27,139 nucleotides of DNA from a virus: positions 1 through 27,139 of IMG/VR virus record IMGVR_UViG_3300049482_000063; one strand, given 5' to 3'. The notes under the pieces were generated by a model. The model was not told the origin of the DNA and did not search any database. It saw only the letters and a list, made by a program, of their open reading frames with translations. Below, piece after piece: positions 14,164 to 25,399 of the stretch (the first letter of the stretch is position 1; each line of letters starts with the position of its first letter). Both the position numbers and the translations under genes were made by a program.

Positions 14164-17100
14164 TTAACTCCTTACCGTTATCTTATTAAGTGTCGCTTTA
14201 CCGCCCGCTCTTTTTCTGTTGGAGTTTGTTTTAGTCGTACCAGCTAGTAACCGATTGAGGTTAGTGAATGTTGAACTTCTTGCAGCGTTCGATATGTTAG
14301 CAGGAAGGCTTATTTTACCTCCTCGACCGCCTTTACCTGTGGCGGTCTTGGGCTTCTTTATATAGCCGTTGGTAAGATACGTTTTTGCTTCGCGTTCTAG
14401 TGCCTCTTTTTTCTTCGTAAGAGTATTTATTTTTACCTGGTCAGTCTTGGGGTCTAGCTCTTTTATTTGCTTGTCCAACGCTGTAAATTCTTCCCCTGCT
14501 ACCTTTTTCCAGGTATTTAGGTCGTTACTAGCCTTAGCCCGCGTCATTGTAAGGTCACGGTTAGAGCTGTCTACATCTTTTGGGGTTTCGACCTTGCCTG
14601 CTGATGACGTGCCTGTTTTATATGGAGTTATGTCACCATTTAATAAAAGGTTTACTTGATTCTTGCTAAGTACTGTTTCCTTACCCTTAAAGTCTAACGC
14701 CCGTTCGCCTATAGCATACTTAGTCTGATACTTCCTGTTTTCGACTACTTTTACGTCTTCCGCTAGGGTGGCTAGACGCTTACGCTTGTCCTCAGAAGAT
14801 AGTGCCTTATATTCGTCGCTGTCGATAAGTTGTTTTTGGTATTCCCCCACTTTAGTAGCTGTAATTTTTTCAATATCTGCTGTTTGTCTTGGGGTGAGTA
14901 GCGAGGTTTTAGGTGCCGCTTTGTTGGCGTCCAGTTCCGCGTCAATAGGGTTTGTAGCCCGCTGGTCTGTTATCTTGAACGGTGCAAAGGAGTTTAATAT
15001 TGGATTGTTAGCAGGAATGGGCTGACCTTTGTAATCTCTAGTGCCAACTTTTTGGCGTAAACCAGGGTAGTTTAACATAAGTGATTGTACTTGTTTATCA
15101 ATATTGCCTTTACTGGTGTCCACCTTGCGTTCGGTGTCATCTGACATTCTTGCAATCCAACCCGTCAGTGCCCTGAATGGCACTACTTGTTGTGGGTAGT
15201 TAGATACGGCCTGTACGGCACGGTCTGAATCGCCCTTAAAGGCTGCTAGAGTGTCCCCTATGTTTTTAACGTAAGACTGGTCGCCTAGGAACTGCCCCCA
15301 CTTAGCAACGCCTTCTAATATTGCGTCTGCTGTTGACTCGCTCATTTTCTTTTGTTTAATTGCGTCATCAATACCTGCGGTTAGGGCAAGCGGGAATGAC
15401 ACAGCAGGGGGTAATTTAGAGAACCCAACCCACTTACCACCTATACGTATCGCGTATGGTTGTTTGCCTTCTGCTAAGAATCGGTCACGCTCGTTTGCAT
15501 TGGTAGGTGTCCCCCATGTTAAGTCGCCAGCGCCAAGTGCCGCGGCTGATGCACCGAATACAGCTGTACCAATGGCAGCACGGGTAAGGGCAGTTGCTTT
15601 ATCTGCTGCTGTCACTGCGTTAGCAAAACCAAGCGGGCTAAATTCTACACCCTGCTTAAGTATATTTGTTGGGGTTTTAACAAATGGGAATACAAACCTC
15701 GCCCATGTATGGTCTTTGCGAAGTTTCATAATACTGTTTGTAACGCTGTCTATACTCTGTAAAATGCCGCCTTGACCCCTTAAGTCTGTGTCCTGCTGGT
15801 AGAGACGGTAGGCGCCCTCTGCTTTGGCAAGGGCTTGTTTATTACCTTTTATCTTAATACCTTTTGACTCGCGCAAGTTGAGTGCTGATGTCTCGCCACC
15901 TTCTGCAAGAGTTCTAAAGAATTTATCTGATGCACCTAGCATCTTCATAGGGAATGATAAGGTACTGTACGTCGCACCTTTTACACCACCAATAGCAAGA
16001 GGTGTGGAGTACTCTTGTAGGTCTAGGTTCTGTGTTCTGTCAATACCACGCATTACATCTAAGAACTCGCCCGCTGCTTTTTTAAGGTTAATGGCTGCGC
16101 CCTTGGCGTAAGCTGCGCCCTCGCCCGCTGCGTATTTACGTTCTTTTCCGAATAATCCACCAGTAGCGTCTGCGACCCCCCTTAATGTTTTTTCTAATGG
16201 GGCGACTATACCCACGTTGATAGCGTTGCTTGCAGTGTTTACGATATGTGTAAGTGGACTTGATAACATCGAGTTGTACCTAACCGTATCTAGCCAGTCG
16301 CCAGCTTTGGCGGGTACTAACTCGCGGTATGCCTTAACGACATCGGTTGGGTCGCTAAAATCAACCTTAGCTAGTCTCTTAACGTACACTTCGGGGTTTA
16401 CACCTGCGTTATCTAATAGTTTAAACATCCTTTGTTGTGGGGTGTCTAATTCGTTGGCTATGATACGGCGGGCTTGTAGCTGCCTTGCCAGGTCGGTACC
16501 CTGCTCGCGGCTTACCCTACCCATAGCTGCTGACCTTGCTAGTTTTTCTTCGGCTGTTTTTAAATCGCCCGCTTTAAATGCCGCATCGGCTTCATTCTGT
16601 AGACGTACAGCGTCTTGCCTAACGTTAAGCTGCTCGGCTATCTTTGTACGTACTTGTTCATCTGTGTAGGTTTTAGTGTCTATACCAGCATCTTTAGCAA
16701 CTCTCTGAACATCTTTGTTAGACATCTTTGTAATGGTCTCTTGTGTCGCTTTGTCTAGCCTCGCCATGGCATCATAACCACCTGTGGTATTGAGTCTATC
16801 CGTATTAAGCTTTACCTTTGTGGTACTATTAGTTAATGAATCATTTTGCAATAATTGCGGACTCTTTGCCTGACCTACTGTACGGACTAGTTGTTGGGGT
16901 AGTTGCTCCTGTTTTGATAATTGGACTAGCTTTTTATCTGATAAAACTGCTGGTGGATTTACTGAATCGTTGGTAACTCTTTTGACATTGACTGGTAAAT
17001 CGTCCACAGGCTGAGATATGGGCTTGTTTACTCGGCGTGTCTTTTTGGGAACTGCTTTATAGTCTTCACTAGCACCAAAAGCCGCCTTACCTGAATCTAT

Positions 17101-18738
17101 CTGCCTCTTGGCTTCGTTGAACCAATCTAATTTGCTAGGTGCGCGCCCCTTCTCCGCAAAAGTATCGCTATAAAACTTGGAGTGACTTGTTGACCTTTTG
17201 TACCCGCCCCCGTAAGCTTCGCCGTCGGGTATCAACATACCACCACTTTTGTCTGCGTCCATACCTTCCAACATCTCTGCATAGTCATTCAAAAACGTCT
17301 TTTGTTCTGTGGAAAGTCTAGGTGCTGGGTCATTTTTGCCACCAGGTAATCTAATAAATCCGTCTTGGCCTGGGGCATCAATGTCAGTTGCTTGTCTATA
17401 CCTATCCATGATACTGAGTTTCTTACCGGTATCCGCACCCATCGGGTTGCTTATCTTAAGTGGCTTTGTTTGTGCACCCATTGGGTTATTTATATCTAAC
17501 CCCGTTGTCTTGGCATCAAGAGGGTTACTTATTTTGAATGTTGTCGTATCTGCACCGTCGGGGTTACTTATGGCTAGTCGCACATCATTTTTTGCTGATT
17601 GTATGCGTTCTCTAAGGCTTCCTGGTGCTGCGGGTACATTTGTGTCTACGGCAGCGGGGCCTTTTAATCCAGCCTTAATATACCCTACGCCCATGAGTGC
17701 TGCGCCGACCACTGCGTTCGTAGCAGCCGCTTTTAACGATTCGTTTAAATTAGCACCTTGACCGTAAGCTGATGCCCCACCACCTAGCGCGTTTAGAACA
17801 CTATTAGTACCTAGTTCGGTAAGGCCGTTCTTAATAACACTGCCACCTGCTGCTTTTAGGGCAGCACCTGATGTTGGGGATATAACAAGACCTGCCGTAC
17901 TAGCCAAATCCCCGAAGGACTGTGCATACATTTGTGCGGCGGTCATATCCTTATTAAACCCAGCTTTTTCTAGTTTCTGATTGTAGAATCTACCCAACTG
18001 GTCGTTAACTTCTTGATTAACAGATAACAATTGCTGTATGGCCTCTTGGCCTTTTTGTGGGTCGTATATGCCACTTCGGATACCGTCGGCTATCTCTTTG
18101 GTCTTGTTGGTAGTGAAGCTATCTGTATTCTTTTCTAAGTCTATAAGTTTGTTTTCTATTTGCTTTTCTGTATTCTTACGTGCTGCGTTACCTGGGATGA
18201 TATTACCTACAGGTGTTTCAGATACCTGATTATAGGCACGACTTACTGGGGCAACAATTGAATCCCTATAACTTTGGTCACGCCTTGCTCTTGCGTTGTC
18301 TGCGGCCTGAGTATTATTAGTTACGTTTGCTAGTCCCAATTGAGCACCCTTAACAACGGTGTCTCCAGTCTCCCAAAAAGGCTTGGCAATACCCTTAGCA
18401 ATGCCTGTGGCTTGCTGGACGGGTGTTTTATACCCCGCGTCTTTAGTAGTACTAGCTAGTAATTGGCTAAATTTGTCGTTAAACTGTTGGCCTGTAATCT
18501 GTCCCTCACGTTGTTGTCTGCCTAAGTTCCTACCCGATTGTTGCACAGCCTGGTCTTGGTTTGTAACTTGAGGGGAAAAGCTGCCGTAATACGGTACATT
18601 GGGTCGCGCAGGTGTAGCCATTTTAACTGCTGTTACTTGGCGTCTTTGTTGGTCGGCTGCGGTGTTCGCACTAACGGCATCTTTAATAACACTGGTGTCC
18701 CAGCGTTTCTTTAGGAATCCGCCAAGGTCAAACGCCAT
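14164..18738 (-). CDS. Giant ejection-type virion protein with LPD38-like region
   Basis: The largest gene, 1524 residues. The N-terminal third is Gln/Asn/Ala-rich and helical with a Gly/Ala-rich hydrophobic stretch near 290-350; residues 388-439 hold four 13-residue repeats; a long charged helical region with many Gln and Lys follows (about 600-780). Residues about 850-1200 resemble the large-polyvalent-protein associated domain LPD38 (FPFVKTPTNILKQGVEFSPL, then AIGTAVFGASAAALGAGDLTWG and further hydrophobic helices). The C-terminus is basic and coiled. Size, hydrophobic helices and place suggest an internal virion protein that enters the host membrane during DNA ejection. This is inferred from family resemblance. 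AGGAG precedes the start. Confidence 0.8.
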   Translation of the reverse strand: MAFDLGGFLKKRWDTSVIKDAVSANTAADQQRRQVTAVKMATPARPNVPYYGSFSPQVTNQDQAVQQSGRNLGRQQREGQITGQQFNDKFSQLLASTTKDAGYKTPVQQATGIAKGIAKPFWETGDTVVKGAQLGLANVTNNTQAADNARARRDQSYRDSIVAPVSRAYNQVSETPVGNIIPGNAARKNTEKQIENKLIDLEKNTDSFTTNKTKEIADGIRSGIYDPQKGQEAIQQLLSVNQEVNDQLGRFYNQKLEKAGFNKDMTAAQMYAQSFGDLASTAGLVISPTSGAALKAAGGSVIKNGLTELGTNSVLNALGGGASAYGQGANLNESLKAAATNAVVGAALMGVGYIKAGLKGPAAVDTNVPAAPGSLRERIQSAKNDVRLAISNPDGADTTTFKISNPLDAKTTGLDINNPMGAQTKPLKISNPMGADTGKKLSIMDRYRQATDIDAPGQDGFIRLPGGKNDPAPRLSTEQKTFLNDYAEMLEGMDADKSGGMLIPDGEAYGGGYKRSTSHSKFYSDTFAEKGRAPSKLDWFNEAKRQIDSGKAAFGASEDYKAVPKKTRRVNKPISQPVDDLPVNVKRVTNDSVNPPAVLSDKKLVQLSKQEQLPQQLVRTVGQAKSPQLLQNDSLTNSTTKVKLNTDRLNTTGGYDAMARLDKATQETITKMSNKDVQRVAKDAGIDTKTYTDEQVRTKIAEQLNVRQDAVRLQNEADAAFKAGDLKTAEEKLARSAAMGRVSREQGTDLARQLQARRIIANELDTPQQRMFKLLDNAGVNPEVYVKRLAKVDFSDPTDVVKAYRELVPAKAGDWLDTVRYNSMLSSPLTHIVNTASNAINVGIVAPLEKTLRGVADATGGLFGKERKYAAGEGAAYAKGAAINLKKAAGEFLDVMRGIDRTQNLDLQEYSTPLAIGGVKGATYSTLSFPMKMLGASDKFFRTLAEGGETSALNLRESKGIKIKGNKQALAKAEGAYRLYQQDTDLRGQGGILQSIDSVTNSIMKLRKDHTWARFVFPFVKTPTNILKQGVEFSPLGFANAVTAADKATALTRAAIGTAVFGASAAALGAGDLTWGTPTNANERDRFLAEGKQPYAIRIGGKWVGFSKLPPAVSFPLALTAGIDDAIKQKKMSESTADAILEGVAKWGQFLGDQSYVKNIGDTLAAFKGDSDRAVQAVSNYPQQVVPFRALTGWIARMSDDTERKVDTSKGNIDKQVQSLMLNYPGLRQKVGTRDYKGQPIPANNPILNSFAPFKITDQRATNPIDAELDANKAAPKTSLLTPRQTADIEKITATKVGEYQKQLIDSDEYKALSSEDKRKRLATLAEDVKVVENRKYQTKYAIGERALDFKGKETVLSKNQVNLLLNGDITPYKTGTSSAGKVETPKDVDSSNRDLTMTRAKASNDLNTWKKVAGEEFTALDKQIKELDPKTDQVKINTLTKKKEALEREAKTYLTNGYIKKPKTATGKGGRGGKISLPANISNAARSSTFTNLNRLLAGTTKTNSNRKRAGGKATLNKITVRS
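17419..17574 (-). repeat. Four in-frame 39-bp (13-residue) repeats
   Basis: Within the giant virion protein the unit xISNPxGAxTxxL occurs four times back to back: AISNPDGADTTTF, KISNPLDAKTTGL, DINNPMGAQTKPL, KISNPMGADTGKK. The DNA copies have diverged at third positions, so the repeat is old or under protein-level selection. Confidence 0.9.
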
Positions 18739-18747
18739 GATAGACTC

Positions 18748-19326
18748 CTAGAACCCTTGTTCTTGTTGCTTCTTCTTTAACTGGCCTAGTTGTGAACCAT
18801 AGTAACGTGAATCTACACCAAGTGATTGGTCGCCGCCAAACTTAGCAGGGTCAACCGTATATTGACCTAGCGTTGGTGTCTGTAGATTAGTAGCCCTTGC
18901 AGTAAATTGCGGCTTGTAGTTACCGAACAAAGCATCTAGCTGCGCTTGACGTGCGTCTACGCTGTTACGGCTTGCCTCGCCTGCTGCGCGAGCTGCTGCG
19001 TATCCTTGACCGTTTGCTTGGGCACGCTGTACCTGTAGTTGACCTTTTTGGCCTTCAAGTGTATTGCGTTGGTTACCTATTCCTTGTAAGAATGATAGCT
19101 CTTGGGACTTGCGTTGATTCTCTACGTCTTGCGTGTTGTAGTCGAATTGGTCTTTAGCATTACCGCGTGCAAATGCAATGCTTTGGTCATTTTTGCCAGC
19201 TTGGTCAAATACACCCTGACGACGAGTACCAGCGGCTTTAGATACTAAAGAAGGCGCTAATTCGCGTGCAGCGCTTGAATTACCTGAGTTACCACCCTGG
19301 AAGATTTTTATAAGATGTGTTTGCAA
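18748..19326 (-). CDS. C-terminal half of a frameshifted ejection-type protein
   Basis: The frame is open from 19341 to 18748, about 192 residues from a TTG at 19326, but it has no Met anywhere, no ribosome binding site, and only that weak TTG as a possible start. It is therefore most likely the second half of the protein begun at 19927, reached by a +1 shift. It contains GGNSGNSSAARELAPSLVSK, then helical Gln/Arg/Ala-rich coiled segments (QRNTLEGQKGQLQVQRAQAN), an ALFGNYKPQFTARATNL stretch and a TPTLGQYTVDPAKF motif. I recall the same order in long internal virion proteins of candidate-phyla phages. It precedes the giant ejection-type gene by ten bases. Confidence 0.8.
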   Translation of the reverse strand: MQTHLIKIFQGGNSGNSSAARELAPSLVSKAAGTRRQGVFDQAGKNDQSIAFARGNAKDQFDYNTQDVENQRKSQELSFLQGIGNQRNTLEGQKGQLQVQRAQANGQGYAAARAAGEASRNSVDARQAQLDALFGNYKPQFTARATNLQTPTLGQYTVDPAKFGGDQSLGVDSRYYGSQLGQLKKKQQEQGF

Positions 19327-19927
19327 AGTTACTAACTTGTCCTAAACCTTTTTCTTTATCTTGGGAATTTTGTAATGATTGTGAATCGTAACCTGCGTTT
19401 GCTTTGGTACGTTGTTCTTCTATGAGACGGGCATTTTCGGCTGCCGAACCACGTAAGGTTTCTAATCCTTGTGATTCTGCTGTACCAACCCTGCCGAGTA
19501 GCCTGTCTATGTCACTTAATTGGTCGTCGTAATATCGTTGCGTATCTGCTGTCGAGTTGCCAGCAGTTCCACCTGTAGTACTGCCTAGTACGCCACTACT
19601 ATTACCACCGCCTGTGAACTGACTATATTTACCAAGTAAGTACTGCCTAGCAGCTGCTTGGGCTGCTGCGTCTTCTGCTGCACCACCACCACCTGATGTC
19701 CACTGGTTAAGTTCCCCGACATTTATACCCGTGTCGCCCTGACCATTATAATCACCACCTACATAATTAAGTGAGCGTTCCGCCTGTGAGTCGCCTGATT
19801 GCGCTAGTTGGTTAAGGTAACCCCTAAAGCCGTTATCCCCAGCGGGTAGAACAGCTTGCTGTGTAGGTACGCCACCTACCTCTATTTGTCCTGTTGTTGG
19901 GTTAAGATATATCGCACCGTCTGCCAT
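19289..19927 (-). CDS. N-terminal half of a frameshifted ejection-type protein
   Basis: From the ATG at 19927 (MADGAIYLNPTTGQIEVGG), preceded by AGGAGA, the frame codes 212 residues to TAA at 19289. It is Gly/Gln/Ala-rich, with a long coiled segment near the end (DDQLSDIDRLLGRVG, then AAENARLIEEQRTKANAGYD) that stops abruptly at NTSYKNLPGW. The second half continues in the +1 frame. An in-frame ATG at 19993 would add 22 residues that look like a signal peptide (KRLYVLILIGLLLLVQTG); it lacks a good ribosome binding site, so the shorter form is preferred, though both could be made. Confidence 0.8.
   Translation of the reverse strand: MADGAIYLNPTTGQIEVGGVPTQQAVLPAGDNGFRGYLNQLAQSGDSQAERSLNYVGGDYNGQGDTGINVGELNQWTSGGGGAAEDAAAQAAARQYLLGKYSQFTGGGNSSGVLGSTTGGTAGNSTADTQRYYDDQLSDIDRLLGRVGTAESQGLETLRGSAAENARLIEEQRTKANAGYDSQSLQNSQDKEKGLGQVSNFANTSYKNLPGW
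19292..19341 (-). other. +1 frameshift window
   Basis: The zero frame ends with TAA at 19289-19291 and the +1 frame opens after TAG at 19342-19344, so the shift must occur in these 50 bases. Candidate slip sites are CTT-C (CTT at 19303-19301 sliding to TTC) and GGG-T (GGG at 19297-19295 sliding to GGT). The joined product would be about 392 residues. A sequencing or assembly indel, for example in the five-A run, is the alternative. Confidence 0.65.
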
Positions 19928-20084
19928 TTTGTTGTCTCCTGTTTGAACAAGTAGGAGTAAGCCGATAAGAATTAAGACGTATAGTCTTTTCATAGCTAAA
20001 CTATAACCTGTAAGTTAATGTTTGGCATCTTCCTTATTTTGGCTAGATGATGACTTCGTTTACACGACAGTCCTCTTGCTCTTT

Positions 20085-24940: not shown

Positions 24941-25399
24941 TTAGTAGGCTGTTACTGCCGCGTTAGGGGTAATGGCTATATAGTCAAGAATATAGTTAAT
25001 CTTGCCTGCTGTAATAGCTGCGGTGGCATCTGTGGCAATAATGTCGGTGTTTGTGACTGACCACAATGGCACCTTTGTTAGAGCCGTACCCCTTGCAACT
25101 ACTGCTGCCGTGCTGTCTATACCCGCATTGGCTACCATGTTCGTACAAGTTAGTATAGGTATCAACATGTTAGTTGTACCTGCTACACCGTGTACTAGAG
25201 TAGCTGTTGCACCCGCTAGGGTTGTTTCAACATAACCCCTTAAAGAACAAATTACCGTACCTGTAACTGCAAACAGTTTAATAGTATCGTTTAGAGCACC
25301 TGAACCTGCAACGTTTGAAAACGTCATAGATTTCATAGCACCACTTGGCTTTACGCCTGCCTGCATTTCATCTAGTTCGCCTCTTGTGAATGAACCCAT
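24941..25399 (-). CDS. Capsid-associated or decoration-type protein
   Basis: A 152-residue protein with an N-terminal tail (MGSFTRGELDEMQAGVK) and a beta-rich rest (VTGTVICSLRGYVETTLAGA, TATLVHGVAGTTNMLIPILT, GIDSTAAVVARGTALTKVPL, ITAGKINYILDYIAITP). I recall similar VTGTV...GYVETTLAGATATI.HGVAG sequences in uncharacterised phage structural loci near capsid genes. It may decorate the head. AAGGAGA precedes the start; only one base separates it from the large fibre gene. Confidence 0.75.
   Translation of the reverse strand: MGSFTRGELDEMQAGVKPSGAMKSMTFSNVAGSGALNDTIKLFAVTGTVICSLRGYVETTLAGATATLVHGVAGTTNMLIPILTCTNMVANAGIDSTAAVVARGTALTKVPLWSVTNTDIIATDATAAITAGKINYILDYIAITPNAAVTAY

Follow-up and report, generated by a model that had tools for sequence, protein, structure and literature searches.

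The locus and its two reading frames

The window analyzed here is the whole of one linear IMG/VR virus record of 27,139 bases. The locus of interest is on the minus strand of this window, where two overlapping open reading frames lie directly upstream of a gene for an internal virion protein, with the following features:

14164..18738, minus strand: neighbouring downstream gene, intact, encoding an internal virion protein of 1524 aa (phrog_6651)
18748..19341, minus strand: 3′ part of the broken gene, 197 codons without a usable start, stop codon at 18750-18748
19289..19927, minus strand: 5′ part of the broken gene, 212 codons, ATG at 19927, TAA at 19291-19289, ribosome binding site AGGAG
19301..19311, minus strand: 11 bases shared by the two frames when these are aligned to the family, as delimited by the profile domain ends in window coordinates and by overlapping tblastn segments
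19301..19316, minus strand: direct repeat ATCTT with a period of 11 (ATCTTATAAAA ATCTT), the likely site of an 11-base loss

The original prediction described a downstream frame without methionine or a ribosome binding site, and with only a TTG as a possible start, overlapping the upstream frame by about 50 bases that include the sequence CTT-C. Reading of the minus-strand ORFs bore out this description: there was no Met among the 197 codons, TTG at 19326 was the sole start-like codon, no Shine-Dalgarno sequence was found for this frame, and CTT-C was located within the overlap of about 50 bases at 19303-19300. In six other genes of the window, out-of-frame reading gave open runs of at most 92 codons, far fewer than the 197 codons of the downstream frame. 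Therefore, the downstream frame is coding, because an open run of this length is far beyond chance.

The upstream frame contains an additional in-frame ATG at 19993, which would extend it to 234 codons. Starting at this ATG, the protein has a hydrophobic N terminus (MKRLYVLILIGLLLLVQTG, window 19928-19993, minus strand); a similar hydrophobic start (MKLFTTLILVVLLSLVGLTF) was seen in one relative (L040/L044), and the other relatives are without it.

The gene is a single open frame in relatives

Searches of phage records and viral contigs with either half of the gene, or with the 1524-aa neighbour, gave no matches. Relatives were instead reached through the major capsid protein, which yielded 30 contigs, followed by alignment of the gene. 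In three of these contigs (L002, L006 and L029), the gene was found as a single ORF of 393, 351 and 328 residues, respectively, at the same site before the internal virion protein gene. Profile and pattern searches yielded five further relatives (L038/L043, L039/L041, L040/L044, L042 and L045). All eight relatives, which are other IMG/VR contigs, have a single open frame that aligns without gaps across the junction, where an arginine residue is invariant among the eight. Both frames of the window match this same protein of the relatives, and the original prediction was right to treat them as two halves of a single protein.

The comparison with related phages, which had been proposed as a check on the original prediction, thus found the break kept in none of the eight; a single intact frame in relatives was the outcome that the original prediction had itself named as refuting it. 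The same comparison bears on whether the locus holds two separate genes, the second being translated from TTG 19326 or by re-initiation. Apart from the presence of this TTG, the evidence runs against such an arrangement, in that the second part has neither a ribosome binding site nor a Met in 197 codons and both parts are in one frame in all of the relatives; we regard it as extremely improbable. A separate start at TTG 19326 was rejected on the ground that there is no ribosome site.

The nearest copies of the protein were only about 37-42% identical. No near-identical contigs were detected in an exact scan allowing variable spacing or in a scan of genome contigs, and no close relative of the phage with either an intact or a broken copy of the gene was found. 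The contig otherwise appears sound, in that no other window gene for which a comparison with relatives was possible was split between frames. The genes just upstream of the relatives' gene (L038:2646-3743 and L039:2789-3703) contain long repeats of the Ser-Pro-Ser-Ala-Ser type.

The encoded protein is predicted to form a helical hairpin

The protein of the broken gene had no match among PHROG and Pfam families, and fold searches returned generic coiled-coil matches only. A structure model of the intact L006 protein had a mean pLDDT of 58.8, with values mostly of 76-93 over two long helices (residues 104-183 and 190-265) that are joined by a conserved QG-x-N-x-G turn. The protein belongs to an uncharacterised phage family and, based on this model, is predicted to form a long helical hairpin. 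A role in the virion or in ejection is plausible, because the gene lies directly upstream of the phrog_6651 internal virion protein gene.

The two frames overlap by 11 bases relative to the family

In a search with a profile built from the eight relatives, residues 87-209 of the upstream frame matched profile positions 67-179 (E 1.8e-17), ending at base 19301, and residues 11-195 of the downstream frame matched profile positions 180-359 (E 7.8e-43), starting at base 19311. The profile domains therefore abut at 179/180 with no position missing, while the window bases that encode them overlap by 11. Likewise, when the unbroken L002 and L006 ORFs were used as tblastn queries, consecutive segments of the protein were placed in two frames on window bases that overlap. 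The shared bases encode SYKNL in the upstream frame and LIKIF in the downstream frame, and examples of the relatives' sequences at the junction are SINNL followed by NRLL and SANSL followed by SRVF. The junction residues raised the match of the downstream frame by 4.0 bits and that of the upstream frame by 4.8 bits; random replacements did as well in 5% and 2% of cases, respectively.

With 4-5 bits for each junction piece, the sequence alignments support the exact placement of the gap well but not overwhelmingly; on the same alignments, the shortfall of 11 bases in spacing is independent of where exactly the gap is placed. Relative to the family, then, the break corresponds to a net loss of 11 bases and not to a one-base change. 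A single-base insertion or deletion, for example in a run of A residues, does not account for the spacing in the family, which requires 11 bases, and was rejected. A gap placed after CTT, with four residues missing, was also rejected, since the downstream frame matches the family through IKIF too.

A short direct repeat at the junction has the same period

The junction contains the sequence ATCTT twice with a period of 11, a pair that is unique in the window, where 0.04 were expected. A period of 11 was the only one from 5 to 19 that gave a match run of more than 3 at the junction, and such a repeat is present in about 1.2% of 28-base stretches. The length of the indel, as given by the 11-base shortfall, is the same as the period of the repeat at the site, which is probably what remains of a short tandem repeat. 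In a separate observation, a tandem repeat of 12/36 bases occupies positions 1-173 of the window, at the end of the contig.

Features of programmed +1 frameshifting

The original prediction saw an apparent +1 frameshift in the overlap, with CTT-C as a slip type like that of RF2, which, if programmed, would set the ratio of a short form (about 212 residues) and a long form (about 392) of a virion protein. Such a shift, at the CTT-C of 19303-19300, would be in keeping with a short overlap and with two halves that are each conserved and open. However, all eight relatives read through the junction in a single frame without a gap, 11 bases are missing, and the stimulators known from the RF2 gene are absent: the stop codon is not adjacent to the slip codon (the sequence reads CTT CCA GGG TGG TAA) and there is no Shine-Dalgarno-like sequence upstream of CTT. 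Downstream RNA folding was ordinary in comparison with shuffled sequences (z −1.05, calculated with pseudoknot-free folding). A +1 shift would yield a product short of four residues where the family is most conserved, beside the QG-x-N-x-G turn, and the short form would, according to the model, consist of half a helical hairpin, which is unlikely to be a functional product. We therefore consider a programmed frameshift at this site highly improbable.

The locus shares with the +1 programmed frameshift of RF2 (prfB; PMC5009743) the sequence CTT followed by C and the +1 relation between the frames, but it differs in having no stop beside the slip codon, no Shine-Dalgarno stimulator and a break that is not conserved. 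The +1 frameshifts in the capsid and tail-shaft genes of Listeria phage PSA (PMC5009743) also concern virion-region genes of a phage with a +1 relation, but PSA shifts on a proline codon beside a stop or a pseudoknot, whereas the relatives here need no shift. It is likewise highly improbable that a loss of 11 bases was followed, in this lineage alone, by +1 recoding that at present controls the ratio of short to long forms of a virion-region protein.

Probable loss of one repeat unit

Taken together, these results indicate that the locus is very probably one gene split, in this single contig, by an 11-base loss, resulting from an ordinary mutation or an assembly fault and not from programmed ribosomal frameshifting. 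The simplest account, and most likely the correct one as far as can be judged from the sequence, is the loss of a tandem-repeat unit, which would leave behind both a shortfall of one repeat period and a match to the family in either frame across the repeat. The ancestral gene would have had one intact frame containing one more 11-base repeat unit. One unit would then have been lost, either by strand slippage in the phage genome or by an error in the assembled sequence, which would have put the second half out of frame. Taken literally, the record would specify a truncated 212-residue protein ending at the hinge of the hairpin, with the rest having no working translation.

Tandem-repeat unit loss by replication slippage, or by a sequencing or assembly fault, has in common with this locus that the missing length equals the local repeat period and that both frames match the family. 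The difference is that the intact parent sequence is not seen here in a close relative; as the searches yielded no closely related copy having the additional unit, the ancestral repeat is one that we infer. The break may be a real mutation in the phage or an assembly artefact.

The second half of the gene exhibits no further decay, which would fit a recent loss or an artefact, and would also fit a frameshift that is in use. This intactness would also be in keeping with a genuine deletion that has become fixed in the phage, with occasional, non-programmed slippage giving enough of the full-length protein. Such rescue of indels by corrective frameshifting has been described (PMC5009743), but the locus has no sequence signal for efficient shifting and there is no evidence of the deletion being fixed in a population, so that we think this very unlikely.

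Recognition of the probable loss of a repeat unit prevents the locus from being recorded wrongly as a programmed frameshift, and it provides a simple test: when the same bases are matched to the family profile in both frames, and the length of this overlap is also the period of a local repeat, loss of a repeat unit is a likelier cause than recoding.

Insertions in other genes of the relatives

In two relatives (L022:8434-9236 and L026:9170-9992), about 0.8 kb interrupts the gene for the major capsid protein, and the codon interrupted is identical in the two (corresponding to 26681|26682 of the window). In both, the insert encodes a protein that, judged by eye, resembles HNH homing endonucleases (189 and 196 aa). 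Rfam gave no match at the gathering threshold in the window, L022 or L026; the insert is probably a self-splicing intron. In another gene of L022 (10558-11730), which encodes a relative of the 152-aa protein of the window (24941-25399), about 240 residues are inserted in frame. The insert may be an intein or an additional domain, and the product that bears it had no PHROG match.
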